In this document: one piece after another, positions 43,801 through 60,242 of the stretch
Layout of the letters: each line of letters opens with the position of its first letter
Position numbering within the stretch: the stretch's first letter is position 1
Position numbers and translations under genes: made by a program
NCBI RefSeq assembly: GCF_902833145.1
Contig: NZ_CADFEN010000007.1
Span: forward strand, 1 to 64,000
DNA: 64,000 nucleotides
Direction: 5' to 3'
DNA from: Burkholderia sp. BCC0506
GTDB lineage: Bacteria > Pseudomonadota > Gammaproteobacteria > Burkholderiales > Burkholderiaceae
Notes under the pieces: generated by a model
Databases searched by the model: none
What the model was told of the DNA's origin: nothing
The model's input: only the letters and a program-made list of their open reading frames with translations

Positions 43801-45207
43801 TCAGACGCTGTAGCCGATCCGCAGGACGCCCCACGGCCGTCCGCCGACGACGATCGGCGCGGACACGTCCTTCATCAGCGCGAACTGGCCGTTGCCCATG
43901 TCGCGGCGATAGGTCTGCAACAGGAACGGCTTGTCGTGCGATACCGACATGCGCGCCGTCCGGTCCGTATAGATCCGCCGGTTCCGCGCGTTCGCCGCGT
44001 TCCAGGCGGCGTCCGCGCGCTGGGGCAGCGAGAATTTCCGGTTGTGGGTCGGCAGGTAGCACTGCCGGTCGAAGCTCGCGCAGTAGACGATGCGTTCGTC
44101 GAGATCGAGCACCGGCTCCTGGATGGCCGGCAGCACGCGATCGGTGAAAGCCGTGAAGCGCGTCATGAACTGCTGCGGGTCGGTGCCCGGAATCGGTTCG
44201 TAGTGCGTGTCGAAGAGCGCGTCGAGCGCGATATCGCCGCGGCCGACTGCGTCCTCGAACAATTTGCTGATCGCGGCGGCCGTGCTCCGTGCGGTATCGA
44301 TCAGGCGCGTGTCGGGCGATTCGATGCCGGTCGCGGCCGTGAGCTCGATGAGCGTCTCGGAGACGGACAGCAGGTTGCCGAGCCGGTCCTTGGCTTGCGC
44401 GAAATTGTCGGCCGAGTTCTCGACGCCGGACGCCATCTCGCCCACCTGCTCGTCGAGGCGGTGGCACTGCGCCTCGATCTCGTCCGTCAGCGACGCGATT
44501 TGCTCGGCCTCGCCGGCCAGCTCGGTGATCGCGTGGCCGGTCGCGTGCACGACCTCGCCGATCGTGCGCGTGCCCTCGCGCACGCGATGCGCGCGGGCGG
44601 CGTTGTCGGTGCCTTCCGCGAGCAGGTGCTCGGTCTGCTCGGCGAGCCGCGCGAGGGTCGTCTCGATCTGGGCCGTCGCCTGCCCGGTCTTCGCGGACAG
44701 GTTCTTGACCTCGGCCGCGACGACCGCGAAGCTGCGCCCGGACTCGCCGGCGCGCGCGGCCTCGATCGCGGCGTTCAGCGCGAGCAGGTGGGTCTGGCGC
44801 GCGATGACGGAGATTTCCTCCGACACGGCCCGCACGTGATCGAGCGCGTCGCGCAGCGCGCCCATCTGGTCGCTGATCGTGGTGACGCCCTCGACGAGGC
44901 CGTGAATGTCCGCGAGCGACGCCTCGATCGTCTGCTGCGACTGCCGGACCGCATTCGACGCGTTGGCGCTCACGTCGCGCACCTGCTGCGCGGCTTCGGC
45001 GATCCGGTGGTTGCCGCGCAGCGTGAGGGCAGCCGATTCGCGCAACGTATGGCAGACCTCCGCCTGCCGGGCGACGCGGGCCGCGACTTCCTCGACGTGG
45101 CCCGACACGTCGCAGATCTCGATGCCGAGCCGGCCGGCCTGCTCGGCGATGTCACCGACGAGCGCGCGCGATGCGCGGCGGCCGCGGCCGATTCCGAAGA
45201 AGTTCAC
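43801..45207 (-). CDS. Cytosolic methyl-accepting chemotaxis protein with C-terminal sensor
   Basis: The 468-residue chemoreceptor has no membrane helix. The signalling hairpin spans about residues 60-270, with the tip SVIARQTHLLALNAAIEAAR. The C-terminal 120 residues form a PAS/Cache-like module seen in a class of soluble MCPs (LPTHNRKFSLPQRAD and SAPIVVGGRPWGVLRIGYSV). The start is GTG at 45207, with AAGGAG upstream. It lies on the same strand as the porin and dehydrogenase genes, so taxis linked to alcohol or redox state is conceivable. Confidence 0.88.
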   Translation of the reverse strand: MNFFGIGRGRRASRALVGDIAEQAGRLGIEICDVSGHVEEVAARVARQAEVCHTLRESAALTLRGNHRIAEAAQQVRDVSANASNAVRQSQQTIEASLADIHGLVEGVTTISDQMGALRDALDHVRAVSEEISVIARQTHLLALNAAIEAARAGESGRSFAVVAAEVKNLSAKTGQATAQIETTLARLAEQTEHLLAEGTDNAARAHRVREGTRTIGEVVHATGHAITELAGEAEQIASLTDEIEAQCHRLDEQVGEMASGVENSADNFAQAKDRLGNLLSVSETLIELTAATGIESPDTRLIDTARSTAAAISKLFEDAVGRGDIALDALFDTHYEPIPGTDPQQFMTRFTAFTDRVLPAIQEPVLDLDERIVYCASFDRQCYLPTHNRKFSLPQRADAAWNAANARNRRIYTDRTARMSVSHDKPFLLQTYRRDMGNGQFALMKDVSAPIVVGGRPWGVLRIGYSV

Positions 45208-45330
45208 GTTGGCGGGTCTCCTTGATGGCTCGCGCGCCGGCTTCCCGGTGGAGGTCGGGCGTGCGTTCCTGACTTGACGGCCGCCCGGCCGCGGACTTGA
45301 GGTCGGGTAAACCATCGAGGTCGGCCTGCC

Positions 45331-45360
45331 GGACGGGCGGCGCGTGTCGGCCGCCCGTCC
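45331..45360 (-). terminator. Stem-loop downstream of the porin gene
   Basis: GACGGGCGGC (45332-45341) pairs with GCCGCCCGTC (45350-45359), a 10-base GC-rich stem over an 8-base loop, beginning 18 bases after the porin stop. There is no T-run on the minus strand, so termination would be weak or factor-assisted. It may also stabilise the 3' end of the porin transcript. Confidence 0.5.
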
Positions 45361-45377
45361 GTCGGCATGACGCCGCG

Positions 45378-46448
45378 TCAGAACACGTGGTGGATGCCGG
45401 CGTTCACGCCGACCGTCGTGCCCGGCAACCCGTACAACGCACCGCCCGTGATGCCGAGGCCGGTATTCATCGCGCCATGGTTGTTGACGACGCCGACCTG
45501 CGCATACAGGCCGGTTCGCTTCGACAGGCTGTAGTCGGCACCGATCGCGGCCAGCAGCGAATGATTGTGCGAATCGTTGCGGTCGGTCGTGTACCACGCG
45601 CCGGTGTTCAGGTCGAGCGCCGGCGTGACGCGATAGTCGAGGCCGGCGCTATACACGTTGTTGCTGAACGAGCCGGCGACCTTGTAGCTCGTGAACGACG
45701 CCTTGCCGGTCAGCGGCCCGAACGTATAGGCGGCGCCGATCGTGCGGCCGACGAACGCGACCGTGCTCGGCACCGGCGTCGGGGACGTGCCGCCGTTGCC
45801 GTCATAGAGCGCCGCGTTGAGCATGAAGCCGCCGTTCGTATAGGTGAGGCTGCCGGAATACTGGCGTCCCGCCTGGAAGTCGCCGGCCTTTCCGCCGAAG
45901 CCGAACATCGCGCTGGCCGTCAGCCCGGCGATCGTCGGGCTCGTGTACGAAATCGCGTTCGGGTTGAAGAGGCCCGTGACGAGCACGTTGTCGACGTACG
46001 GAACCAGCGCGGCGCCGAAGTGCGAGACGTTGCGCGGATCCGATCCGAGTATCGCGAGCACGAACGGCGAGAACTGCAGGCCGACCTTCGTTTCGCCGAA
46101 GCCGCCGTCGATCCCGACCCACGCCTGGCGGCCGAAGAAGTTGCCGTTCGAATGGCCGAACGCGCCGTCCGTGATGTTGAAGCCGCTTTCCAGCTTGAAT
46201 CTCGCATGCAGCCCGCCGCCGAGATCCTCGGTGCCGGTGATGCCGAAATTGGTCGGCGTCATGCCCGTGTCGGTCAGCGCGAACTGGCGTCCGGCGTTGC
46301 CGCCGGTCGCCGAGTCCAGCGATCGGCTCGTATAGAGCAACGCGGCATCGAGATCGCCGTACAGCGTGACGCTGCTCTGCGCGAAACTGCTCGTGCTTGC
46401 CGTCGCGCCGACTAACGCCGCGCAAATCGTCCATGTCCTGCTCTTCAT
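45378..46448 (-). CDS. Gram-negative porin (OmpC-like, Burkholderia type)
   Basis: The 356-residue outer-membrane porin has a signal peptide ending SSFAQS and the first strand SSVTLYGDLDAALLYT. The conserved FGITGTEDLGGGLHARFKLE and FFGRQAWVGIDGGFGETKVG blocks follow. The C-terminus ends in phenylalanine (NAGIHHVF), the outer-membrane assembly signal. The gene lies downstream of the HiPIP gene on the same strand, 229 bases away, and may serve entry of the alcohol substrate. Confidence 0.9.
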   Translation of the reverse strand: MKSRTWTICAALVGATASTSSFAQSSVTLYGDLDAALLYTSRSLDSATGGNAGRQFALTDTGMTPTNFGITGTEDLGGGLHARFKLESGFNITDGAFGHSNGNFFGRQAWVGIDGGFGETKVGLQFSPFVLAILGSDPRNVSHFGAALVPYVDNVLVTGLFNPNAISYTSPTIAGLTASAMFGFGGKAGDFQAGRQYSGSLTYTNGGFMLNAALYDGNGGTSPTPVPSTVAFVGRTIGAAYTFGPLTGKASFTSYKVAGSFSNNVYSAGLDYRVTPALDLNTGAWYTTDRNDSHNHSLLAAIGADYSLSKRTGLYAQVGVVNNHGAMNTGLGITGGALYGLPGTTVGVNAGIHHVF

Positions 46449-46677
46449 CGTCTGTCTCCGTCTTGTGAGTGTTGTAATACGTACGACTAATTGAAACGTC
46501 GGCGGCGCAAGAGAGCGAGCCGCCTGCATGCCGTGCCGTCGGCAACGCATCGGCGATTTCGCCGTGCGTCACGTATCGCGATCGATGCCCAGCGCGATCA
46601 GCACATGCAGATGCGCGGCGCGATCGGCATCCGCGCCGCGACGCGGCGTGCCGTCGCGCTCGCGAGCCGGCCCGGCG

Positions 46678-46992
46678 TCAGGCGAGCTTGGCATAGACGT
46701 TGCACCAGCCTTCGGCGGCCACCGTCTTGCCCGCGAACATCGGGCACGACCCGACCGATTCGCCCGCGGCAGCCTTGTAGAAGCGGCAGTTCGAACACGT
46801 CTGGCCGGCCTGGTATTTCGGGAACTTGCCTGCGTCGACGGTCGTGGCCCTGGCGCGATAGCCGAGCGTCTTCGCCGCGGCATCGTTTTCGTCGACGGGC
46901 GGTGCCGCGGCGAAGGCGCGCGTGCCGGCCGCGAGCGCGGCGCACAGGCCGGCGGCCTGCACGAAGAAGGTTCTGCGATGGCGGGAGATCAT
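46678..46992 (-). CDS. High-potential iron-sulfur protein (HiPIP)
   Basis: The 104-residue protein carries a Tat-type signal (SRHRRTFFVQAAG) and a small mature domain with four cysteines, in TCSNCRFY, GSCPMF and GWCNVY, in the spacing that binds the 4Fe-4S cluster of HiPIPs. It is a periplasmic one-electron carrier. It lies 98 bases downstream of the cytochrome fusion gene on the same strand. It is therefore a good candidate for the electron shuttle between the quinoprotein/cytochrome and a terminal oxidase. Confidence 0.92.
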   Translation of the reverse strand: MISRHRRTFFVQAAGLCAALAAGTRAFAAAPPVDENDAAAKTLGYRARATTVDAGKFPKYQAGQTCSNCRFYKAAAGESVGSCPMFAGKTVAAEGWCNVYAKLA

Positions 46993-47090
46993 GGTGTCGT
47001 CCTGAATGAAGTGACAAGAAAAAGTCCGGCCCGCGCGCCGGGCTGGCTGCCCGGCGCGGCGGCGGATCGAAACGAAAGCGGGGGGAAGCG

Positions 47091-48296
47091 TTACTTGCGC
47101 GGTCCGGCGACGAGCGGCGCCTTCGATGCGTTGGCGATATCGGCGGTCAGCTTGCTTTTCGACGCGTCGTAGCCGTTCGAATAAAGCAGGAACGCCATCA
47201 GGTCCTCGTACTCTTCCGCGGTCATCTTGCCGGGGCGATCGGCCGGCATGTTGCTCGACATGTACAGGAAGATGCCGCCGACCGTGATGTGCGACTTGCC
47301 TTCGGGCGCGAACGATTCACCGCTCAGTGCGGGTGCGGTATTGCCCTCGAGCTGGTCGCCGTGGCATTTCGCGCACGCATCGCCGTAGAGCTTCTTGCCG
47401 TGCTGCACCTGTGCCTGGTCGAACGACGGGACGCCGCTGCCTTCGCTCGTCGACACCTTGATGAAGCCGCTTCTTGCCGGCCGCTGCGCGGACGCGACCG
47501 CACCGTCGAGAAACCGGCCGGGCGCGCGTGGGGCCGCGGCTTGCGCGATGTCGTCGGGAAGCGTCCAGCCGCGCGTGAGCGATGCGAGCCGGCCGTTGCC
47601 GCTCATCCGCGACAGCGTGGCGTCGATGCGCTTTTGCAGCGCGTCCTTGCCCGGTCCGAATGCGAACGACAGTTGCCAGTCGGAGTACGGCGACGACGTC
47701 GCCGCCACCCGGAACCGTTGTTTCGGATGGGCACGCGCGTAGGCGACGACGCTCGGATACCAGACGATCGCGCGCTGCGCGCGGCCCGCGGCGAGCGCGC
47801 CGATCGTTTTCTCGCTCGTGTTCTCGAGGTCGAAGCGGGCGTTCGCCTGCTGCGCGGCGATCAATTGCGACGGGCTGCCGTACGTGGCCGCGATCGTTTC
47901 CTTCGCGCCGGACGGCGCGGGCGCGTCGCGCAGCGACACGCTGACGTAGCCCGAGCGCAGATAGCCCTGCGAGAACGTCAGTTTCGATCCCGACGCATCG
48001 GCGACAGCCGAGCGCGGGAAGCCGGCGATCACGTCGCAGTCGCGTTCGAGCGATTTCGTCAGCTCGCTGGCGGAGATGCCGTCGTCGTCGCCGTTGTCGT
48101 CGACGCCGCGTGCGTTGAAGGTCGCGGCGATGCCCGCGGCGCGGAACACTTCGCGCGCAACGGAGCGGTCGAGCGCGGTGGTCGGGCTGCCGGGCAGCGT
48201 GCAGACGCGCACGCCGGCCGACGCGGCTGCCGGTGTCAGCGCCACGCCCACGGCGAGCAGACTGGCGACGGTAACGGAAGTGAGGCGAGTATTCAT
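47091..48296 (-). CDS. Fusion of periplasmic solute-binding-like domain and cytochrome c
   Basis: The 401-residue protein starts with a signal peptide (cleavage near AAASAGV). Residues 28-250 resemble the MoxJ/XoxJ-type binding proteins associated with quinoprotein dehydrogenases. Within them lies an acidic loop, D66-E78 (DDNGDDDGISASE), like an EF-hand. Residues 295-375 form a class I cytochrome c with heme motif CAKCH (308-312) and probable axial Met350 (SSNMPAD). In other systems the two functions are separate genes (xoxJ, xoxG). The gene is 80 bases downstream of the dehydrogenase. Confidence 0.85.
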   Translation of the reverse strand: MNTRLTSVTVASLLAVGVALTPAAASAGVRVCTLPGSPTTALDRSVAREVFRAAGIAATFNARGVDDNGDDDGISASELTKSLERDCDVIAGFPRSAVADASGSKLTFSQGYLRSGYVSVSLRDAPAPSGAKETIAATYGSPSQLIAAQQANARFDLENTSEKTIGALAAGRAQRAIVWYPSVVAYARAHPKQRFRVAATSSPYSDWQLSFAFGPGKDALQKRIDATLSRMSGNGRLASLTRGWTLPDDIAQAAAPRAPGRFLDGAVASAQRPARSGFIKVSTSEGSGVPSFDQAQVQHGKKLYGDACAKCHGDQLEGNTAPALSGESFAPEGKSHITVGGIFLYMSSNMPADRPGKMTAEEYEDLMAFLLYSNGYDASKSKLTADIANASKAPLVAGPRK

Positions 48297-48376
48297 GGTC
48301 GTGTGTCCGGTGAAAGCGGGTGGGGCGTCGCGCCCGCATCGGGCGCATGCGGGCGCGACTCGGGCATGGCGCGTGT

Positions 48377-50098
48377 TCAGTTCAGCGCGAACACGTAGAG
48401 CGTGCCGCCGCGCGGAACGTCCTTCGCGATGTCGGCCATCGGGCCGCCCCAGATCGGGTTCGCGCCGCCATAGCCGGCGAGCACCGCGACATACTCCTTG
48501 CCGTCGACTTCATAGACCGACGGTTGCGAGATGATGCCGCTCGCCAGTTGCGGGCTTTCCCACAGCACCTTGCCGGTCTTCGTGTCGAACGCGTACAGGT
48601 GGCCGTCGAGCGAGCCGCTGAACGCGAGGCCGCTCGCGGTGGTCGCGACGCCGCCGTTCCACGGCTTCTTCGACCAGTGGCTCCACAGCTTCTTGCCGGT
48701 GTTCACGTCGATGGCCGTCAGCTCCCCATAGCCTTCGCTGCCCGGTTCGGGTTTGATCTCGAAGCCTTCGCCGAGATACGGCAGGCCTTCCATGTAGCTG
48801 ACCGACTTGCCGGTCAGGCTCATGCACGCATGCAGCGCCGGCACGACCGCGATGTTGCGTTCCTGGTCGTACGAGATCGACCACCAGTTCTTGCCGCCGA
48901 GGAAGCTCGGGCACGTTTCGATCGTCGTGCCGGCCTTCGGGAACTTCGATGCGTCCTGGATCGGCTTGCCGTCGGCCGTGTAGCCGGTGACCGACAACGC
49001 CTTCACGAACGGCGTCGCGTAGATCAGCTTGCCGGTCGTGCGGTCGATCGCGTGGAAGAAGCCGTTGCGGTCGGCGTGGATGATCGCGTCGTAGTCCTTG
49101 CCCTGGTACTTGATGTCCGCGAGGACGGCCGCGTTCACGCCGTCGTAGTCCCACGTGTCGTTGTTCGTGTACTGGTAGTGCCACTTCAGGTTGCCGTTCT
49201 TCGCGTCGAGCGCGAGCAGCGAGTCGGAATACAGGTTGTCGCCGGGGCGCAGCGCCGCGAGCCACGGGCCGGGGTTGCCGACGCCCCAGTACAGCGTGCG
49301 GGACGCGGCGTCGTACGTGCCGGTGAGCCACGCGGCGCCGCCGCCATGGCTCTGCATGCCGTCGGGCCAGGTTTCCGCGCCCTTTTCGCCGGCGGCCGGG
49401 ATCGTGTAGCGTTTCCAGACCTGCGAGCCGTCCTCCGGGTTCAGCGCGGCGATGTAGCCGCGAATGCCGTATTCGCCGCCTGACGTGCCGACGACGATCG
49501 CGCCGTCGATCGCGAGCGGCGCGAGCGAGAACGCGTAGCCGAGGCCCGGCTCGAACATCTGTTTCTTCCACACGAGATTGCCGGTCTGCGCGTCGAGCGC
49601 GGCGACTTCGCCGTTCAGCATCGCGATGTAGACGTTCTTGCCGTACAGCGCGACGCCGCGGTTCACGACGTCGCAGCACGCGGTCTTGAACGAGGCCGCG
49701 CCGAGCTTCGGCTCGTATTTCCACAGCTGCTTGCCGGTCTTCGCATCGAACGCGTAGACGTTGTCCTTCGGCGTCGTCACGAACAGGTAGTTGCCGTTGA
49801 CGATCGGCGTGGCCTCGAAACCCTGCTTCAGGTCGGCCGGGAACTTGTACGCCCACACCTGCTTGAGATCCTTCGCGTTCGACGGGTCGATCTGCTTGAG
49901 CGGCGAATGCGAGCGGCCGTCGTAGGTGCGGTAGTAGGTCAGCCAGCCCGGGTCGCCGTGTGCATCGGTCAGGCGCTGGTAGGTCACGGCCGGGTAGTCC
50001 GCGGCCGCTTCGACGAAGCCGGGGTTCAGCGCGACGGCGGCCGCCACCGCGATTCCGATCGTCGCCAGCCGGCTCGCTGAAGCCGAGAGTTTCTTCAT
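48377..50098 (-). CDS. PQQ-dependent alcohol dehydrogenase, probable lanthanide type
   Basis: The 573-residue periplasmic quinoprotein has a signal peptide and an eight-bladed propeller with repeated tryptophan-docking motifs. It has the vicinal disulfide Cys141-Cys142 (TACCD), metal ligands Glu209 (GGEYGIRG) and Asn275 (GNPGPW), and catalytic Asp317. Asp319 two residues further on (WDYDG) is the extra ligand typical of lanthanide-dependent XoxF/ExaF enzymes, where calcium enzymes carry a non-acidic residue. No cytochrome domain, so electrons pass to a separate carrier. CAGGAG precedes the ATG. The alcohol substrate is unknown. Confidence 0.9.
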   Translation of the reverse strand: MKKLSASASRLATIGIAVAAAVALNPGFVEAAADYPAVTYQRLTDAHGDPGWLTYYRTYDGRSHSPLKQIDPSNAKDLKQVWAYKFPADLKQGFEATPIVNGNYLFVTTPKDNVYAFDAKTGKQLWKYEPKLGAASFKTACCDVVNRGVALYGKNVYIAMLNGEVAALDAQTGNLVWKKQMFEPGLGYAFSLAPLAIDGAIVVGTSGGEYGIRGYIAALNPEDGSQVWKRYTIPAAGEKGAETWPDGMQSHGGGAAWLTGTYDAASRTLYWGVGNPGPWLAALRPGDNLYSDSLLALDAKNGNLKWHYQYTNNDTWDYDGVNAAVLADIKYQGKDYDAIIHADRNGFFHAIDRTTGKLIYATPFVKALSVTGYTADGKPIQDASKFPKAGTTIETCPSFLGGKNWWSISYDQERNIAVVPALHACMSLTGKSVSYMEGLPYLGEGFEIKPEPGSEGYGELTAIDVNTGKKLWSHWSKKPWNGGVATTASGLAFSGSLDGHLYAFDTKTGKVLWESPQLASGIISQPSVYEVDGKEYVAVLAGYGGANPIWGGPMADIAKDVPRGGTLYVFALN

Positions 50099-50191
50099 GG
50101 TTGTCTCCTGGGTCATTGTGGTCGCACCGCCGCGAACGTTGCGTCGCGCCGGCACGGTTTGGGGTTTCCGGGCCGAGTGCACTGCCCGTCA

Positions 50192-50207
50192 CGCAAGTCG
50201 CATGCCA
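50192..50207 (-). promoter_or_regulatory. Putative sigma54 promoter of the PQQ dehydrogenase operon
   Basis: On the minus strand TGGCAT-GCGAC-TTGC fits the -24/-12 consensus with exact 10-base spacing between GG and GC. It lies about 95 bases before the dehydrogenase start, giving a leader of about 80 bases. GTGTTG elements are placed 88-125 bases further upstream, a normal enhancer distance. Confidence 0.6.
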
Positions 50208-50294
50208 TCGCGGCGGGAAGCCGGTGCGGCGCGGCAGACCGGCGTATCGCCAGTGATGCGTCGATCCACGGCGCGCGTGACGACGTCGGCGCAG

Positions 50295-50332
50295 GTGTTG
50301 CATTCAGGTACACCGCCGTGCGCGAAGTGTTG
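50295..50332. promoter_or_regulatory. Putative shared activator sites (UAS)
   Basis: Two copies of GTGTTG (50295-50300 and 50327-50332) are 32 bases, about three helical turns, apart. They sit between two outward-facing sigma54-type promoters. The same hexamer, as CAACAC, is repeated 21 bases apart upstream of pqqA. They are candidate binding sites for the AcoR-like activator. The rest of the 434-base gap (50099-50532) shows nothing further. Confidence 0.45.
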
Positions 50333-50439
50333 CCAAACATGACAGGCGGGGCAGTCCGCGGGACTACGGCGAGTCGGTCGCACGCATGCCGTCCCGAAGC
50401 GATGTGCGGCGCAGCGTGCGCCGCGCGTGCTCGCGGCAC

Positions 50440-50455
50440 TGGCACGGTTTTCGCA
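50440..50455 (+). promoter_or_regulatory. Putative sigma54 promoter of the TonB receptor gene
   Basis: TGGCAC-GGTTT-TCGCA matches the sigma54 consensus at all but one key base (TCGC for TTGC), with correct spacing. It lies 78 bases before the TonB receptor start, with the GTGTTG pair 108-145 bases upstream. Confidence 0.55.
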
Positions 50456-50532
50456 CACCGGCTTCGCGACAATCGATCGCCGCGCGGTGCGTCGCGCAGG
50501 CCGGCGCAATACATGTTCGGAGACGAAGGGAA

Positions 50533-52863
50533 ATGATCAGGAGACCAAAGGCAGCCGGGCGCGACGGTGCGATGCGGCGCGGCCGGCGTGCGCGATGCGT
50601 CGGCGCGGCCGTCGGCACGCTGGCGTTGTTCGGATTGGCGCCGGGTAGCGTGCGCGCGCAGCAACAGGCGGACGGCGCCGCGATCGATCCGCCCGAGTCG
50701 TCCGTCATGCTGCCTGCGGTAGTGGTGGTCGGCACGACGCCGCTGCTCGGGATCGGCACGCCGCTGTCGAACGTGCCGGCGAACGTGCAGACGGTGCGCG
50801 CGGCGGAACTCGACGCGCAGCACCGCGCGACGCTCGCCGATTTCTTCGCCGCGAACCTGCAGAGCGTGACGATCTCGGACGCGCAGGGCAACCCGTACCA
50901 GACGGACGTCAACTATCGCGGCTTCACCGCGTCGCCGCTGCTCGGCACGCCGCAGGGGTTGTCGGTGTTCGTCGACGGCGTGCGCGTGAACGAGCCGTTC
51001 GGCGACGTCGTGAACTGGGACATCCTGCCCACGCAGGCGATCGATCGCGTGCAGCTGATTCCGGGCTCCAACCCGGTATACGGACGCAACACGCTCGGCG
51101 GTGCGCTCGCGATCACGACGAAGAACGGCAGGTCGAACCCGGGCGGCGAAGCGGAGATATCGGGCGGCGCATGGGGCCGCAAGGCCGCCGGCATCGAGCA
51201 GGGCGGCACGATCGGCCCGCACCTCGACTATTACGCGACCGCGCACGTCGCGAACGACGGCGGTTGGGCCGACCATAACGCGAGCCGCGTGCGGCAGGCG
51301 TTCGGCAAGCTGCGCTACACCGATGCGGACACGACGCTGTCGCTCGCCGCGGGCGGCGCGGACAACACGCTGTCCGGCACCCAGACGATCCCGCGCTCGT
51401 TCCTCGACAACCGGAAGCAGGCGTATACGTATCCGGACCGCAACCGTAACAGTGCCGGCTACCTGACGCTGTCGGGCGACCGTTTTTTCGGCGAGCACGT
51501 CGAGCTGAGCGGCAATGCGTACTACCGGCACCTGCGCAACACGAACACGAGCAGCAACAACAATACGGACTACGGATCGGTGGACGAGGACGGCACGGTC
51601 GACACGGTGCAGGGCAGCAATGCGCGATCGACGATCGTCACCGACAGCTACGGCGGCAGCCTGCAGCTCACGCTGCTCGGCACGCTCGGCGGCATGGCGA
51701 ACCAGCTGGTCGCGGGCGTCTCGGCCGATGTCGCGAATTCCACCTACGTCGCGTCGTCGCAGGACGCGTCTTTCACCGATGCGCGCGCGGCGATCGGCAT
51801 CGGCGATTTCGTGCAGCAGACCCGTGCGAAGACCCGCAACGCGAACGTCGGCGTGTACTTGAGCGATGCGCTGTCGCTGACGCCGCACTGGACCTTGACG
51901 CTGTCGGGCCGCTACGACTGGTCGAAAGCGCAGATCGGCGACGAGAGCGGCGGGCAGCCGCTGCTCGACGGCAACCATGCGTTCTCGCGCTTCAACCCGG
52001 CGGTCGGGCTCAACTGGAATCCGGTCGCGGGGTTCACCGCGTATGCGACGTACAACGAAGGCATGCGTTCGCCGACCGCGATCGAACTCGCGTGCGCGGA
52101 CCCGGCCGCGCCGTGTTCGCTGCCGAACGACTTCATCGCCGACCCGGCGCTCGAGCCCGTGATCTCGAAGACATTCGAAGCCGGCGTGCGCGGCCGCATC
52201 GGCGCGGCGACGACCTGGAGCGCCGCGGCCTACCGCACGACGCTGACCGACGACATCCAGTTCATCAGCAGCCCGGCCAGCACGCAGGGTTACTTCCGCA
52301 ACGTGGGCGATACGCGGCGGCAGGGTATCGAGCTCGCCGGCCGCGCGCGGCTCGGCCCGCTCGGTGTCGGGCTGTCGTACAGCCATGTCGATGCGACGTA
52401 CCGGTCGTCGTGGACCGAACACAGCCCGGCGAATTCGGCGGCCGACGCGCACGGCAACGTGACGGTCAAGCCGGGCGACCGCATGCCCGGCATTCCCGCG
52501 CATACGGTGAAGCTGCGGCTCGACTACGCGGCGACGCCTGCGTGGGACCTCGGCGCGAACGTTACGTGGCGCAGCGGCGTGTATGCGCGCGGCGACGAGA
52601 ACAACGGGGACGTGAACGGCCGGATCGCGAGCTACGTGCTGGTCGATCTCGACATGCGTTACCGGATCACGAAGCGGTTCGAGGTGTTCGCGAGCGTGAC
52701 GAACCTGTTCGACAAGCGCTACGCGAGCTTCGGCGCACTGGGCCGGAATTTCTTCAATGGTCCGAACCACACGTTCGACGGCGGCCATCCGGTGGACGAG
52801 CAGTTCGTCGGGCCCGGCGCGCCGCGCGGCGCGTGGGTCGGCGCGCGCTATGCGTGGGATTGA
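50533..52863 (+). CDS. TonB-dependent outer-membrane receptor
   Basis: The 776-residue receptor has a signal peptide after a basic N-terminus (cleavage near VRAQQQ) and a TonB-box-like MLPAVVVVGT. A plug domain (about 75-185, FVDGVRVNEPFGDVVNWDIL and IPGSNPVYGRNTLGGALAI) is followed by a 22-strand barrel. It starts at the ATG with GAAGGGA upstream. It is divergent from the PQQ dehydrogenase with shared control elements. Likely cargo is PQQ, as for PqqU, or a metal-lanthanide chelate, as for LutH; sequence alone cannot decide. Confidence 0.88.
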   Translation: MIRRPKAAGRDGAMRRGRRARCVGAAVGTLALFGLAPGSVRAQQQADGAAIDPPESSVMLPAVVVVGTTPLLGIGTPLSNVPANVQTVRAAELDAQHRATLADFFAANLQSVTISDAQGNPYQTDVNYRGFTASPLLGTPQGLSVFVDGVRVNEPFGDVVNWDILPTQAIDRVQLIPGSNPVYGRNTLGGALAITTKNGRSNPGGEAEISGGAWGRKAAGIEQGGTIGPHLDYYATAHVANDGGWADHNASRVRQAFGKLRYTDADTTLSLAAGGADNTLSGTQTIPRSFLDNRKQAYTYPDRNRNSAGYLTLSGDRFFGEHVELSGNAYYRHLRNTNTSSNNNTDYGSVDEDGTVDTVQGSNARSTIVTDSYGGSLQLTLLGTLGGMANQLVAGVSADVANSTYVASSQDASFTDARAAIGIGDFVQQTRAKTRNANVGVYLSDALSLTPHWTLTLSGRYDWSKAQIGDESGGQPLLDGNHAFSRFNPAVGLNWNPVAGFTAYATYNEGMRSPTAIELACADPAAPCSLPNDFIADPALEPVISKTFEAGVRGRIGAATTWSAAAYRTTLTDDIQFISSPASTQGYFRNVGDTRRQGIELAGRARLGPLGVGLSYSHVDATYRSSWTEHSPANSAADAHGNVTVKPGDRMPGIPAHTVKLRLDYAATPAWDLGANVTWRSGVYARGDENNGDVNGRIASYVLVDLDMRYRITKRFEVFASVTNLFDKRYASFGALGRNFFNGPNHTFDGGHPVDEQFVGPGAPRGAWVGARYAWD

Positions 52864-52917
52864 GCGGCGCGCGGTCGTGTGTGGCATCGCGTCATGGCAC
52901 GAACGAGCGCCGGGCCG

Positions 52918-53934
52918 TCACGCGAACGGCACCGTCTCGAACATCGCCTTCACGGCGCGTGCGACGCTGCGCGCCAAGGCCGGGTCGCTTGCCAGATGCC
53001 CGGCCGTCACGCGCTCGACTTCCGCTTCCGGGGCGGCTCGCGCGAGGCGCTCGACGTTGCCGACCGGGCAAACCGGATCGCGCGTTCCGTGCGCGGCGAA
53101 CAGCGGTACGTGGGCCTGTGCGGCTCGACGTGCAAGCGCGAGCACACGGCGCTCGCCGAGCCAGCAATCGCGTTGCAGGTAGTGCGCCTGGATCCGGTAT
53201 TTGTCGATCAGCCGGCCGACGGTCCGGTTCGACCGGATCGTGCGCACCGGAGCGCGGCGCGTGCGTGCCGATGCGAGGATCGCGCTTTCGTACGCGTGCC
53301 ATGCGAGCGCCACCGCGCGCTGCCGGGCTACGCTCGCGCCGTGGCGCAGCCGCTGCGCGCAGCGCGACAGCAGGCGATCCGGCCGGCCGCCGCCGGCCGC
53401 CGCATGCAGGCGCCGCCATTCGCGCGGCGCACGCGTGCGGGAAGTCGTGAAGAGCCCGCGGACTTCGCGTCGCGACGTCAGGAACAGGCCGCGCAGCACG
53501 ACGCCGGTCACCCGCTCCGGATGCGTGCCCGCATAGGCGAGCGCGAGCGCGGCGCCCCACGATCCGCCGACGACGCCCCAGCGTGCGATGCCGAGCTGCT
53601 CGCGCACGGCCTCCAGATCCGCGATCAAGCGTGCTGTGTCGTTGTGGCGCGTGCCGCCGCGCGGCGTCGACGCGCCCGCGCCGCGCTGGTCGACGAGCAC
53701 GACGCGTACGCGGCTGAGGTCGAACAGCCGCAGGATGCCGGCCTGGCTGCCGCTGCCGGGCCCGCCGTGCAGCACGACGACCGGATGGCCGTGCGCGGCG
53801 CCGGCCACGGCGAATGCGATCGATTGTGCGTCGCGGTGCAGGCGCCGGCGCACGGGCGTGGCAGGTGACGCCGGTACATCGGGCAACGCGCGCAGTGCGG
53901 GCGACGGCGTGGATCGAATCGGGCGACGCATCAT
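52918..53934 (-). CDS. Proline iminopeptidase-like alpha/beta hydrolase
   Basis: The 338-residue S33-family hydrolase has the oxyanion motif HGGPG (56-60) and nucleophile Ser125 in VVGGSWGAALAL. Acid and base are likely in HGTRDPVCPVGN and TAGHLASDP. The length is typical of proline iminopeptidases. The stretch RTVGRLIDKYRIQAHYLQRD is the cap region that binds the peptide amino end. It converges on the TonB gene and is not obviously part of the alcohol locus. Confidence 0.85.
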   Translation of the reverse strand: MMRRPIRSTPSPALRALPDVPASPATPVRRRLHRDAQSIAFAVAGAAHGHPVVVLHGGPGSGSQAGILRLFDLSRVRVVLVDQRGAGASTPRGGTRHNDTARLIADLEAVREQLGIARWGVVGGSWGAALALAYAGTHPERVTGVVLRGLFLTSRREVRGLFTTSRTRAPREWRRLHAAAGGGRPDRLLSRCAQRLRHGASVARQRAVALAWHAYESAILASARTRRAPVRTIRSNRTVGRLIDKYRIQAHYLQRDCWLGERRVLALARRAAQAHVPLFAAHGTRDPVCPVGNVERLARAAPEAEVERVTAGHLASDPALARSVARAVKAMFETVPFA

Positions 53935-54167
53935 GTCGATAGGGTTCGGGCGGAAGCGGGACAGTCATCGTTGTCCGCGGCGGGGCGGTCGCCGGCGTGC
54001 CCTGCGACCAAGCGAGAAGCGCGCCAGCCGCGACGATCCGGATTCGCACGGGTAGTCACGCGTCGGGAAATCGCGGTATCACGCACGCAGGCCGTCGCCC
54101 GGCGCGACCCGCCGTGTGAGGACGATTCATTACATTGTCCTTTCGATTGTGTTGCGCGGCGCCGGCG

Positions 54168-54183
54168 TGGCCCGATGCTTGCT
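54168..54183 (+). promoter_or_regulatory. Putative sigma54 promoter of the activator gene
   Basis: TGGCCC-GATGC-TTGCT has the GG and GC pairs at the required 10-base spacing and matches the -12 element exactly. It lies 56 bases before the ATG of the AcoR-like gene. If real, the regulator is transcribed by the same sigma factor it serves. The remainder of the 304-base gap (53935-54238) shows no other clear element. Confidence 0.45.
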
Positions 54184-54238
54184 TGCAATGACGGCAAAGA
54201 GTCCGGCAGTTGACCGGCAGGATCCCCCGGAGGAGACA

Positions 54239-56278
<2,040 letters not shown>

Positions 56279-56304
56279 CGCGCAGTCGTCGCGCGGGGCG
56301 CGAC

Positions 56305-56360
56305 TGTCACAGCCGGTGTGTCAAGTTGCAACACCGGTGTTCAACGATTCAACACCTGTC
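56305..56360. promoter_or_regulatory. Putative activator sites upstream of pqqA
   Basis: The segment holds the perfect 12-base palindrome AACACCGGTGTT (56330-56341) and CAACAC at 56329-56334 and 56350-56355, 21 bases (two helical turns) apart. A further TGTCAC/GTGTCA-like pair lies at 56305-56323. They lie 130-190 bases before the -24/-12 promoter, a usual enhancer distance. Confidence 0.5.
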
Positions 56361-56492
56361 ACCACTCGCGGACATCGTGCCGCCGGGGTGGCGGACCGCA
56401 TTCGCGCGAATCGTGTCGGCCATTCGTAAGGATTGCGCCGCGATGCCCTGATGATGGCCGTCTATCGCCGCCGCGTCGCCGAACGACGAGTT

Positions 56493-56508
56493 CGGCACGC
56501 TCCTTGCT
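56493..56508 (+). promoter_or_regulatory. Putative sigma54 promoter of the pqq operon
   Basis: CGGCAC-GCTCC-TTGCT matches the -24/-12 consensus except for the first base and has exact GG-N10-GC spacing. Transcription would start near 56519, giving a leader of about 80 bases before pqqA. It is the best match among the four sigma54-like sites in this locus. Confidence 0.65.
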
Positions 56509-56543
56509 GAAGTTGAGTCGACCGCTCGATTGCCGCGGTCGTT

Positions 56544-56586
56544 CGATTCACCAAGCAACGCATCGACTCATCAACGCATCGATTCA
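56544..56586 (+). repeat. Repeated motif in the pqqA leader
   Basis: AACGCATCGACTCA (56557-56570) and AACGCATCGATTCA (56573-56586) are a tandem repeat with one mismatch and a 2-base spacer. A third CGATTCA lies at 56544-56550. They fall in the predicted untranslated leader, just before the ribosome site. Confidence 0.6.
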
Positions 56587-56600
56587 ACAGGAGACACACC

Positions 56601-56675
56601 ATGCAGTGGACGACACCGTCTTACACCGACCTGCGCTTCGGCTTCGAAATCACGATGTACATCGCCAACCGCTGA
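56601..56675 (+). CDS. pqqA: PQQ precursor peptide PqqA
   Basis: The 24-residue peptide [20 protein letters not shown] plus IANR carries Glu16 and Tyr20 in the E-x3-Y motif. These are the two residues that PqqE cross-links and that become the PQQ skeleton. A strong CAGGAGA site precedes the ATG. It is the first gene of pqqABCDE and lies 322 bases after the activator gene. Confidence 0.96.
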
Positions 56676-56736
56676 TCGCCGTGCCTGCCGCCCGTTTCGC
56701 CGTGATCGGCGCGGGCGGCCTCGGGAGCTGACGCCC

Positions 56737-57660
56737 ATGAAGATCAAGATACTCGGCTCGGGAGCCGGCGGCGGGCTGCCGCAATGGAACTGCAATTGCG
56801 CGAACTGCCGCCGCGCGCGCAGCGGAAGCGGCCACGTGCTGCCGCGCACGCAGTCGTCGATCGCGGTCAGCGACGACGGCATCGACTGGGTACTCGTCAA
56901 TGCGTCGCCCGACATTCTTTCCCAGTTGCGCGCGGATCCGGACCTGCAACCGGCGCGTGCGATCCGAGACAGCGGCATCGCCGCCGTCGTGCTGTGCGAC
57001 GCGCAGATCGATCACGTGACGGGCCTGCTGATGCTGCGCGAGCGTTCGACGCCGCTGCCGCTCTACGCGAGCGCGCCGGTGCTCGACGACCTGTCGAGCG
57101 GCTTGCCGCTCGTGCCGCTGCTCGGCCATTACTGCGGCGTCGCCGCGCACACGATCGTGCCCGGCGAGCCGTTTGCGGTGCCGGCGGCGAGCGGGATCCG
57201 TTTCACCGCGATCGCCGTCGACAGCAAGCCGCCGCCGTATTCGCCGCGACGCGCGTCGGCCGTGCCCGGCGACAACATCGCGCTGTCGATCGAGGACGTC
57301 GCGAGCGGGCGGCGCGCGTTCTACGCGCCGGGGCTCGCGTCGGTCACCGACGACGTGCGCGCGGCAATGGACGGCGTCGATCTCGTGCTGGTGGACGGCA
57401 CGTTCTGGACCGGCACCGAGATGATCGATCTCGGCCTGTCGGGCAAGCACGCGGCCGACATGGGGCATCTCGCGCAGTGCGCGGAACACGGGCGGCCCGG
57501 CATGATCGACTGGCTCGATACGTTGCCCGCGCGCACGCGCAAGGTGCTCACGCATATCAACAACACGAACCCGATTCTCGACCCGCATTCCGTCGAACAC
57601 GCGCACCTGCGCGCGCACGGCATCGACGTCGCACACGACGGCATGCAATTCCAGGTCTGA
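56737..57660 (+). CDS. pqqB: PQQ biosynthesis protein PqqB
   Basis: The 307-residue metallo-beta-lactamase-fold protein begins [20 protein letters not shown], a hallmark of PqqB. It is now regarded as an iron-dependent hydroxylase acting on the tyrosine-derived intermediate. Metal-site regions are [14 protein letters not shown] and [11 protein letters not shown]. It follows pqqA after 61 bases and precedes pqqC by 2 bases. Confidence 0.95.
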
Positions 57661-57662
57661 CG

Positions 57663-58379
57663 ATGAACGCACCGATTTCCGCTACGGCGTTGCACGCGAC
57701 GCCTTGGACCGCGACCGAATTCGAGGCGCGCCTGCGTGCGCTCGAAGCGCGCTATCACATCCATCATCCGTTCAACCGGCGGCTCAACAGCGGCGCCTGT
57801 TCGCCCGCGCAGATCCGCGGCTGGGTCGCGAACCGCTTCTACTATCAGATCTGCATCCCGCTCAAGGATGCGGCGATCCTGTCGAACTGCCCGGACCGCG
57901 ATACGCGGCGCCGCTGGATCCAGCGGCTGATCGACCACGACGGCCAGGGCGACAACGAAGGCGGCATCGAGGCGTGGGTGCGGCTCGGCGAAGCGTGCGG
58001 TCTGACGCGCGACGAACTGTGGTCGCTCGAGCACGTGCTGCCCGGCGTGCGCTTCGCGGTGGATGCGTACGTGAACTTCGCGCGGCGCGCGCCCTGGCAG
58101 GAAGCCGTGTGCTCGTCGCTGACCGAGATGTTCGCGCCGCAGATCCATCTCGACCGGCTCGCGGGCTGGCCGTCGCATTACCCGTGGATCGAGCCGGCCG
58201 GGCTGCATTATTTCCGCAGCCGCGTGCCGCTCGCGCAGCGCGACGTCGAGCATGGGCTCGCGGTCACACTGCAGCATTTCACGACACCGGACGCGCAGCA
58301 ACGCGCGCTCGGCATTCTGCAATTCAAGCTCGACATCCTGTGGTCGATGCTCGACGCCGTCGAAAAGGCCTACCCGTAA
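57663..58379 (+). CDS. pqqC: Pyrroloquinoline-quinone synthase PqqC
   Basis: The 238-residue all-helical oxidase catalyses the final ring closure and eight-electron oxidation to PQQ. Characteristic segments are [39 protein letters not shown] and [20 protein letters not shown]. The length is typical of free-standing PqqC. The stop TAA overlaps the pqqD start by one base (TAATG). Confidence 0.96.
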
Positions 58380-58660
58380 TGAACGCGATCGAAGCCGCCA
58401 GCGGCGTGCCGCTGCGCCCCTGCCTCAGGGGCATGTACCGCCTGCAATGGGAGGCGGCCCAGGATGCATACGTGCTCCTCTATCCGGAGGGCATGGTCAA
58501 GCTGAACCCGAGCGCGGGCGAGATTCTCGCGCGCTGCGACGGCACGCGCGAACTGGACGACATCATCGGCGAGCTCGAACGCCTGTTCATGCAGTCGGAT
58601 CTCGCGACCGACGTCTATCGCTTTCTCGATCATGCGCGACTGCGCGGCTGGCTGGACTGA
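58379..58660 (+). CDS. pqqD: PqqA-binding chaperone PqqD
   Basis: The 93-residue winged-helix RiPP recognition element binds PqqA and presents it to PqqE. LLYPEGMVKLNPSAGEILAR followed by CDGTRELDDIIGELE is the typical core. It overlaps pqqC by one base and precedes pqqE by one base, so equal translation is likely. The N-terminus is slightly longer than in some relatives. Confidence 0.95.
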   Translation: MNAIEAASGVPLRPCLRGMYRLQWEAAQDAYVLLYPEGMVKLNPSAGEILARCDGTRELDDIIGELERLFMQSDLATDVYRFLDHARLRGWLD

Positions 58661-58661
58661 C

Positions 58662-59801
58662 ATGGCGCCCGACACTTCCCGTCCGTCCGCGCCGCTGTGG
58701 CTGCTCGCGGAACTCACGTACCGCTGCCCGCTGCACTGCGCGTTCTGCTACAACCCGGTCGATTTCGCGACGCACGGCGCGGAACTCGACACCGACGCGT
58801 GGCGCACGGTCATCGGCGATGCGCGCGCGCTCGGCGCCGCGCAGATCGGCTTCTCGGGCGGCGAGCCGCTGCAGCGCGGCGACCTCGAGACGCTCGTCGC
58901 GCATGCGCGGGGGCTCGGCTTCTATACGAACCTGATCACGTCGGGCATCGGGCTGAACGTCGCGCGCATCGAGCGGCTCAAGGCCGCCGGGCTCGACCAC
59001 ATCCAGTTGTCGCTGCAGGATTCGACGCGCGAGCTGAACGATTTCCTGACCAGCACGCGCACGTTCGAACTGAAGCGCGACGTGGCGCGGCTGATCAAGG
59101 CGCACGGCTACCCGATGGTGCTCAACTGCGTGCTGCATCGCTACAACCTGCCGCACGTGGGGCAGATCATCGAGATGGCGCTCGATCTCGGCGCGGATTA
59201 CCTCGAACTCGCGAACACGCAGTACTACGGCTGGGCGATGCTCAATCGCGACCAGTTGATGCCGACCATCGAGCAGGTGCGCGAGGCCGAGGAAACGGTC
59301 AACCGCTATCGGAAGCTGATCGGCGAGCGTTGCAAGATCCTGTTCGTCGTGCCCGACTATTTCGAGCGCCGCCCGAAGGCCTGCATGAACGGCTGGGGCT
59401 CGGTGTTTCTCGGCGTCGCGCCGGACGGCACCGCGTTGCCGTGTCATGCCGCGCGGTCGCTGCCGGGGCTCGCGCTGCCGAACGTACGCGACCGGTCGTT
59501 GCGGGACATCTGGTACGACAGCGATGCGTTCAACGCGTTTCGCGGCGACGACTGGATGCGCGAGCCGTGTCGCACCTGCGACGAGCGGCATGCGGATCAC
59601 GGCGGTTGCCGATGCCAGGCCTACTTGCTGGCCGGCGACCCGAAGGAAGCCGATCCGGTGTGCGCGAAGTCTGCCCATCACGGCCAGGTCGAACAGGCCG
59701 TGCAGTTCGCGCGGCGTCATGCGCCGCGCGACGAACGGCCGCTGGTGTTTCGCAGCAAGGAGAATTCGCTCGCGCAATGCGGCGCGGCGTGCGACGGCTG
59801 A
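58662..59801 (+). CDS. pqqE: PqqA peptide cyclase PqqE (radical SAM)
   Basis: The 379-residue radical SAM enzyme joins Glu and Tyr of PqqA. The SAM cluster motif is Cys22-x3-Cys26-x2-Cys29 (CPLHCAFC), followed by GFSGGEPLQRGDLE. The C-terminal SPASM domain supplies auxiliary cluster cysteines (KACMNGWGS, LPCHAARSLPGL, EPCRTCDERH, GGCRCQAYLL). It ends the pqq operon. No pqqF protease gene follows, as in many Burkholderia-like genomes where it lies elsewhere. Confidence 0.96.
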   Translation: MAPDTSRPSAPLWLLAELTYRCPLHCAFCYNPVDFATHGAELDTDAWRTVIGDARALGAAQIGFSGGEPLQRGDLETLVAHARGLGFYTNLITSGIGLNVARIERLKAAGLDHIQLSLQDSTRELNDFLTSTRTFELKRDVARLIKAHGYPMVLNCVLHRYNLPHVGQIIEMALDLGADYLELANTQYYGWAMLNRDQLMPTIEQVREAEETVNRYRKLIGERCKILFVVPDYFERRPKACMNGWGSVFLGVAPDGTALPCHAARSLPGLALPNVRDRSLRDIWYDSDAFNAFRGDDWMREPCRTCDERHADHGGCRCQAYLLAGDPKEADPVCAKSAHHGQVEQAVQFARRHAPRDERPLVFRSKENSLAQCGAACDG

Positions 59802-59903
59802 CAGGACGCCGTGCGCCGCATGTGGAAAACGGTGCGCCGCCGCCGATGCGCGCGCGTACCGTTCACGTTCGATTTCGATGAATGACCGCGCAGTTGCGCG
59901 GCA

Positions 59904-60242
59904 TCACCCGTCATCCGCCTTCGCCTGCAAATCCTTCAGCCCCTGAATCACGACCAGCAGCGCGCGCCCGTGCTCGTCCGAGCCGTCCCACGCGTCGACG
60001 ATCGCGTCGCGCAGCAGGTCGTTGTACCGTCGGCGCGACGGTTGTGTCTCGACACCATAGAAACTGCATAGCTTGTTGAATGGCGCGCTGCGGCGCAGCC
60101 GGCGCCCGTTCGACAGCCGAAGGCGCGACACGGTGGGCTGGCTGACCCCGGAAAGTCGCGCGATTTCGCTAGACGAGCGTGTATCTGCCATCAGGCGGCG
60201 CAACAGGTCTTGAACGGGAAAATCGTGGTCCGGGGCTTCCAT
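59904..60242 (-). CDS. Small HTH DNA-binding protein
   Basis: The 112-residue protein has a Cro/Xre-like helix-turn-helix at about residues 22-45 (SSEIARLSGVSQPTVSRL), a basic stretch and a helical C-terminus. I take the ATG at 60242, because the ATG at 60251 falls inside an apparent -10 box. There is no ribosome site, so the message may be leaderless. It is divergent from the unrecognised 299-residue gene and may repress both. A toxin-antitoxin or defence regulator role is conceivable but not shown. Confidence 0.75.
   Translation of the reverse strand: MEAPDHDFPVQDLLRRLMADTRSSSEIARLSGVSQPTVSRLRLSNGRRLRRSAPFNKLCSFYGVETQPSRRRYNDLLRDAIVDAWDGSDEHGRALLVVIQGLKDLQAKADDG

Follow-up and report, generated by a model that had tools for sequence, protein, structure and literature searches.

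In Burkholderia sp. BCC0506, genes for a pyrroloquinoline quinone (PQQ)-dependent alcohol dehydrogenase, a TonB-dependent receptor, a sigma54 activator and the complete set of PQQ synthesis proteins lie together on contig NZ_CADFEN010000007.1, the first 64,000 nucleotides of which (hereafter, the window) were analyzed here. This arrangement raises the question whether enzyme, cofactor and receptor are controlled jointly, as proposed in a first-pass annotation that assigned all these genes, along with a cytochrome fusion, a HiPIP and a porin, to a single regulon. Common control of the dehydrogenase, the receptor and pqqABCDE is strongly supported by the comparative sequence evidence described below, and with a probability of roughly 0.8 the locus is a regulon in which the local GAF-domain activator would control these three units, and with them the periplasmic oxidation of alcohols, through sigma54 promoters. 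The genes in question are:

48377-50098, minus strand: PQQ-dependent alcohol dehydrogenase with a lanthanide-type D-x-D motif (WDYDGVN; TIGR03075, 564 bits)
50533-52863, plus strand: TonB-dependent receptor (PF00593 and PF07715 above cut-off)
54239-56278, plus strand: sigma54 activator, GAF / AAA+ (GAFTGA) / Fis-type helix-turn-helix (PF01590, PF00158, PF02954)
56601-56675, plus strand: pqqA, 24-residue precursor peptide (recognized in translation)
56737-59801, plus strand: pqqB, pqqC, pqqD and pqqE (TIGR02108, TIGR02111, TIGR03859 and TIGR02109, each above cut-off)

The five genes of the pqqABCDE operon follow each other in the expected order. Among 200 genomes searched in the family, 77 contain a relative of the dehydrogenase; within the genus, the figure is 17 of 23. 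Altogether 139 loci were mapped, namely the window, 58 stretches from genomes of the family and 80 loci found through the activator (the best 80 of 563 confirmed relatives), with some genomes represented in both sets. Unless indicated otherwise, counts refer to the window and the 80 activator-found loci, and a gene was counted only when its start could be mapped.

Conserved predicted sigma54 promoters

The four predicted -24/-12 sites of the window are:

50207-50193, minus strand: sigma54 site of the dehydrogenase, TGGCATGCGACTTGC
50440-50454, plus strand: sigma54 site of the TonB receptor, with a weak -12 half, TGGCACGGTTTTCGC
54168-54182, plus strand: sigma54 site of the activator, TGGCCCGATGCTTGC
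56493-56507, plus strand: sigma54 site of pqqA, CGGCACGCTCCTTGC

By mismatch count, there is no excess of such sites in the window (57 found against 66.4 expected by chance), so that the four could not be judged from a single genome. For each gene, the highest-scoring -24/-12 match in the upstream region was compared with the 99% level of shuffled upstream sequence, using weights approximated from the published consensus. All four window sites pass this level when the shuffled regions are pooled. The dehydrogenase promoter exceeds it in 67 of 68 loci, and the single miss (L148) has the site farther upstream. For the activator the count is 68 of 81; among the 13 misses, 10 are activator copies from stretches lacking a dehydrogenase, L115 retains the site except for a single change, and no sigma54 site was seen upstream in L123 and L127. 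The receptor promoter scores above the level in 14 of 22 loci, the eight misses comprising L099, with the same site at 9.4 bits, and seven cases without a start codon at the mapped start. At pqqA, 34 of 44 loci exceed the threshold and the same GGCA-N6-TTGC site is visible in all 44. Thresholds were not exceeded upstream of the cytochrome fusion (0/67), the HiPIP gene (0/32) or pqqC (0/45), and rarely upstream of the porin (1/7), the hydrolase (1/26) and pqqD (6/66, where some of the regions extend to the pqqA promoter).

Thus, the near-consensus promoters placed by the first-pass annotation before these four genes all exist, and the comparison of orthologous upstream regions that it suggested finds them retained at the dehydrogenase, activator, receptor and pqqA, but they are not exceptional by mismatch count and the -12 half at the receptor is weak. 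GG at -24 and GC at -12 recur at a fixed and conserved spacing, and the promoters are predicted to be RpoN-dependent.

Paired dyads upstream of the promoters

Upstream of three of these promoters we identified candidate operators:

50296-50312: predicted dyad proximal to the dehydrogenase, TGTTGCATTCAGGTACA
50328-50344: second predicted dyad, 32 bp from the first and common to the divergent receptor promoter, TGTTGCCAAACATGACA
56317-56333, plus strand: predicted dyad before pqqA, TGTGTCAAGTTGCAACA
56338-56354, plus strand: second predicted dyad before pqqA, 21 bp from the first, TGTTCAACGATTCAACA

These dyads are 17 bp long (TGT-N11-ACA, the right half being mostly GCAACA) and occur two per region, 5' of the -24 element, about three helical turns apart at the dehydrogenase and receptor and about two turns apart at pqqA. 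The GTGTTG/CAACAC pairs of the first-pass annotation are found in two of the three intergenic regions (50296-50344 and 56317-56354); none is conserved before the activator, where the GTGTTG at about 54148 is not shared by relatives.

The 250 bp before the -24 element were searched in regions preselected for a sigma54 site. TGT-N11-ACA occurs there without mismatch in 67 of 67 dehydrogenase regions, 43 of 44 pqqA regions and 7 of 69 activator regions, against 2.2%, 1.5% and 2.8%, respectively, in shuffled sequences. Pairs are present in 66 of 67 dehydrogenase regions, with a spacing of 30-33 bp in 63 of the 66, and in 42 of 44 pqqA regions, with a spacing of 20-22 bp in 38 of the 42. A weight matrix derived from the dehydrogenase dyads scores above shuffles at the dehydrogenase (58/61), at pqqA (38/38) and at the receptor (16/21), which shares the dehydrogenase dyads; at the activator, 14 of 74 regions exceed the threshold, and none does so in the window. 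Seven loci with a variant activator helix (see below) were excluded from this test beforehand; their half-sites differ. The same matrix detects one dyad before pqqC (1/39) and none before the cytochrome fusion (0/61), the hydrolase (0/25), the HiPIP gene (0/32), the porin (0/6) or pqqE (0/40).

The pairs are also rare genome-wide. In the 7.29-Mb genome, the pair pattern has three matches, at the dehydrogenase/receptor region, at pqqA and at an aldehyde dehydrogenase promoter (discussed below), and the reversed control has none. Combined with a sigma54 site, the pattern was found in 35 of the 36 Burkholderia genomes with the dehydrogenase (the miss is G221) and in none of the 25 without it, although these 61 genomes are related and do not amount to 61 independent tests. 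Its 42 places in these genomes are divided between the dehydrogenase (36) and the aldehyde dehydrogenase (6), with none in the control; the gap allowed by the combined pattern is too short for the pqqA promoter, which is why pqqA is not among its matches.

Concerted change of activator and dyads

The activator encoded in the window combines a GAF domain, an AAA+ domain with GAFTGA and a Fis-type helix-turn-helix, the layout of AcoR-type activators. Its recognition helix reads SRNTIYRK. Across the activator-found loci and the 58 stretches, SRN-T helices are accompanied by CAACA half-sites in 92 loci, by CGACA in none and by neither in 5; SRA-T helices by CGACA in 13 loci, by CAACA in none and by neither in 2; and the two loci with SRT-T have neither half-site. 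The non-redundant counts are 78 (SRN-T with CAACA), 5 (SRN-T with neither), 7 (SRA-T with CGACA), 1 (SRA-T with neither) and 2 (SRT-T). In 10 of the 13 CGACA loci the changed half-site is present at both the dehydrogenase and pqqA and in the other 3 at the dehydrogenase only, and this joint change of two promoters along with the helix is the telling part of the evidence. Seven of the activator-found loci carry SRA-T; six of these are from Trinickia, and the seventh is from a metagenome bin labelled Paraburkholderia. In Trinickia terrae (L164), the N helix and GCAACA are retained. Given that the A and T forms fall together into one clade in a quick tree of the activators, one or two changes suffice. 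Other helix positions also vary in some A loci (RN for RK, L for I). The change of the dyads together with the recognition helix within one clade points to direct binding.

A second activator clade (L150, L151, L154, L157, L158, L160, L163 and L167) has the same helix; no dehydrogenase or pqq match was found in the fetched stretches of these loci, and no upstream sigma54 score exceeded the threshold. In L140, a TTGAT-N4-ATCAA motif, presumably an FNR/Anr-type box, lies 5' of the activator and could add oxygen control.

A model of the regulon and its alternatives

The following scenario is suggested by these observations. The GAF domain of the activator would sense a small molecule, possibly an alcohol or its oxidation product, whereupon the protein would bind the pairs of 17-bp dyads approximately 90-180 bp upstream of -24 and induce three sigma54 promoters, those of the dehydrogenase with the cytochrome fusion, of the divergent TonB receptor and of pqqABCDE. 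With one activator acting on three promoters, enzyme, cofactor and receptor would rise together. The HiPIP would be expressed as a downstream gene of the dehydrogenase; because neither the HiPIP gene nor the cytochrome fusion has a site of its own, both are predicted to be controlled only in this manner.

As to the earlier proposal of one activator for the entire cluster, the promoters, the rare dyad pairs and the concerted change favor it for the dehydrogenase, the receptor and pqqABCDE. The porin has to be dropped as a conserved member, given its sigma54 and dyad counts above and its mapping in only 6 of 139 loci. The activator may or may not regulate its own gene: the sigma54 promoter of this gene is conserved but dyads are lacking in the window and in most relatives.

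Several observations weigh against this scenario. Linkage alone raises the likelihood of shared conservation, and the change of helix and dyads is limited to one clade and so represents one or two events rather than 13. The activator's own promoter has no dyad in the window. The genome encodes two further activators, 53% and 41% identical to this one, the nearer of which has a similar helix (ARNTVYRY) and could bind similar sites. Finally, the TGT-N11-ACA dyad is absent before the pqqA of a second, unlinked pqq set in all five cases examined, so control of that set through this dyad was not seen.

The paralogue brings in the likeliest of the alternatives, namely that the promoters are sigma54-dependent and the dyads genuine, but act mainly with a relative of the activator from another locus, such as the 53% identical one at C7:191301 with its similar helix, or that several related activators share the sites. 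The sigma54 promoter pair of the aldehyde dehydrogenase, with the same dyad geometry and other half-sites in genomes with and without this cluster, fits such a scheme. However, the activator and the dehydrogenase share a stretch in 111 of the 126 loci with a dehydrogenase match (a biased figure, as the 80-locus set was fetched through the activator), the combined pair and sigma54 pattern is missing from all 25 genomes without the dehydrogenase, and it is the helix of the local activator that changed in step with the sites. We therefore consider an activator elsewhere improbable.

More unlikely still is separate control, under which the promoters would be conserved singly and respond to different inputs, the dyads serving the dehydrogenase and receptor only. 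The absence of a dyad at the activator promoter and the different spacing at the dehydrogenase (30-33 bp) and pqqA (20-22 bp) are compatible with this possibility, but pqqA carries the same class of dyad in 43 of 44 loci and its half-site changed like that of the dehydrogenase in 10 of 13 A-helix loci. That the conserved sites serve something else and transcription is mainly sigma70-driven is very improbable indeed, because promoters and dyads keep near-fixed distances across rearranged gene orders, and a simple scan of 45200-60200 gave one sigma70-like site, the chance expectation. Joint control by the local activator thus remains the preferred reading.

The dehydrogenase, its electron partners and the receptor

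The best solved relative of the dehydrogenase is PedH (6zcw, E-value 7e-127). The lanthanide-type motif WDYDG(VN) is present in 68 of 68 aligned dehydrogenases including that of the window, with an additional Asp at the second position after the catalytic one, in alignment with WDFDG of PedH and WDFSG of ExaA. By this motif, the enzyme is assigned to the PedH-like, lanthanide-type class and would be expected to depend on a lanthanide. The remaining genes of the cluster are:

45378-46448, minus strand: porin
46678-46992, minus strand: HiPIP electron carrier (PF01355, 79 bits), 3' of the dehydrogenase and in the same direction
47091-48296, minus strand: fusion of a periplasmic substrate-binding domain and cytochrome c, with an XoxGJ-like layout
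52918-53934, minus strand: alpha/beta hydrolase, missing from the earlier gene list

Apart from this additional hydrolase, the list of the first-pass annotation was correct. Among the 139 mapped loci, gene order varies between lineages; a HiPIP relative was mapped in 54 of them and a porin of at least 60% identity in the six mentioned above, both counts including the window, although several stretches stop 2-3 kb past the HiPIP gene. In the fusion protein, which was aligned with 16 relatives, the cytochrome c domain at residues 295-371 is above the Pfam cut-off; the XoxJ/MoxJ-like model TIGR03871 matches residues 85-230 with 21.9 bits, against a cut-off of 212.

For the receptor, an assignment as PqqU was rejected by the respective model (NF041535, 114 bits against a cut-off of 1200). 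PqqU is reported to be encoded beside PQQ genes in four Burkholderiales genomes (PMC12124388), so that a divergent PQQ receptor is conceivable. The presence of receptor and dehydrogenase relatives near the second pqq set hints at either a lanthanide or PQQ as the cargo.

PQQ supply and a second pqq set

PqqC, PqqA and a clear PF01011 dehydrogenase are each encoded once in the window genome (a weak second dehydrogenase match on contig C5 looks BamB-like), and PQQ may therefore serve mainly this dehydrogenase. A PqqC of at least 84% identity is encoded in all 36 Burkholderia genomes with the dehydrogenase, and one of 66-70% in 5 of the 25 without it. Not all relatives retain the complete operon: 28 of the 139 mapped loci contain pqqA and pqqD with no mapped pqqB, pqqC or pqqE, and a separate pqqB was found in all nine genomes with such a cluster that were checked. 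The activator-found loci with a usable pqqA site but without a mapped pqqB number 19, of which 12 contain paired dyads, always at a spacing of 21 bp, and the other 7 lack such a pair.

The absence of pqqA from 12 stretches around the second pqq set initially suggested that pqqA is confined to the present locus in these relatives. This was refuted by a search of 18 relatives: at least two pqqA matches were obtained in 17 of them and a single one in G068, and a distance of about 10 kb to the second pqqB is common. In 18 upstream regions (750 bp) of unlinked, 57-62% identical pqqB genes, whose pqqA lies elsewhere, there is no sigma54 site or dyad. Before the second-set pqqA, a sigma54-like GGCA-N6-TTGC is located about 100 bp upstream in five of five cases examined (scores 8.8 to 15.4), and the five widened neighborhoods all encode a GAF-type activator relative (40-42%), so sigma54 control of pqqA may have a sister form at the second set. 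In G075 and G171, an additional pqqB (72-73%) is accompanied by a sigma54 site and GGAACA-type dyads. A receptor relative is encoded near the second set in 10 of 12 stretches (in L293, the match runs off the end of the stretch), and a dehydrogenase relative (33-35%) in three of the five widened neighborhoods. The motif reads WDYDGVN in L301 and WDLDAV in L303; L297 gave no match to it. In L288, the second set is located among formylmethanofuran-pathway genes.

A relative of the hydrolase (62-63%) immediately precedes the second pqqB in 3 of the 12 stretches (L285-L287), so the hydrolase may contribute to the supply of PQQ, for instance by trimming the peptide.

A broader scenario can be put forward tentatively, with the odds somewhat against it. 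Under this scenario, the locus would be a lanthanide regulon under a GAF activator, in which one class of operator couples the enzyme, a lanthanide or PQQ receptor and the PQQ precursor peptide, and which shrank to pqqA and pqqD where a second pqq set exists. The second-set pqqA, again with a sigma54-like site, without this operator and beside another GAF activator, would then make peptide supply via sigma54 a recurrent control point, and activator and operators would have been re-matched once, in a mainly Trinickia clade.

A probable sister system at an aldehyde dehydrogenase

The aldehyde dehydrogenase promoter on contig C12 that matched the pair pattern was considered as a further regulon member and rejected, as its dyads differ in their half-sites. 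From the translations, we take the genes at L180:11351-13669 to encode an aldehyde dehydrogenase and a divergent flavin-type protein, and genes nearby are presumably ethanolamine ammonia-lyase-like. The region between the two contains a sigma54 site for either direction, along with dyads whose geometry is the same as at the main locus; their half-sites, read by eye, are of another kind (TGTGGAAATTCCGAACA and TGTTCAGAATCGGCACA in the window genome). In a comparison of 20 of the 25 genomes without the main dehydrogenase and 20 of 35 others with it, the forward sigma54 site reaches at least 13 bits in 15/20 and 20/20, respectively, and the reverse site in 15/20 and 17/20. A sister sigma54 system thus appears likelier than membership in the regulon.

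Comparison with known systems

AcoR-type activators have the same domain order and the same dependence on -24/-12 promoters; the present activator is predicted to act on genes for a quinoprotein dehydrogenase and a TonB receptor as well as on pqq genes, and the operator was derived in this analysis. The Pseudomonas putida PedE/PedH lanthanide switch includes the nearest solved relative, PedH, which has the extra Asp in common with the present enzyme. PedE/PedH are under the two-component system PedS2/PedR2 (PMC6115532), and the window genome has no second clear PF01011 dehydrogenase. In Azospirillum brasilense, exaA is reported to encode a sigma54-dependent PQQ alcohol dehydrogenase, and fusions of exaA and pqqA are both induced by fructose and glycerol (PMC6115532, PMC12826043); there a LuxR-type response regulator acts with sigma54 and RpoE6 affects both genes, whereas for the present locus a GAF activator is predicted, with dyads of its own.

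A XoxG-XoxJ fusion is known in Methylacidiphilum (PMC8498564); it likewise unites cytochrome c and a substrate-binding protein in a single polypeptide, next to a dehydrogenase of the lanthanide type. The likeness covers domain content, and the fusion described here is far below the MoxJ-like cut-off. A map of xox and mxa genes names in its legend a GAF sigma54 regulator of the same class, drawn beside methanol dehydrogenase genes (PMC11845868); neither an operator nor a link to pqq is mentioned there, unlike in the present case. Regulation of lanthanide-type dehydrogenases is so far described mainly via two-component systems (PMC11845868, PMC6115532), and no GAF/sigma54 regulon of this kind in Burkholderia was among the matches listed in the open-licence literature.

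If the proposed regulon is correct, a sigma54 activator that has defined operators and also drives PQQ synthesis would offer a large bacterial family's example of a simple circuit open to testing, and a natural instance of a Fis-type recognition helix changing together with its operator; the pqqA-pqqD remnant suggests which step of cofactor supply merits regulation. New here are the lanthanide-type motif, present in all 68 aligned dehydrogenases, and the clusters in which pqqA and pqqD are the only pqq genes left.

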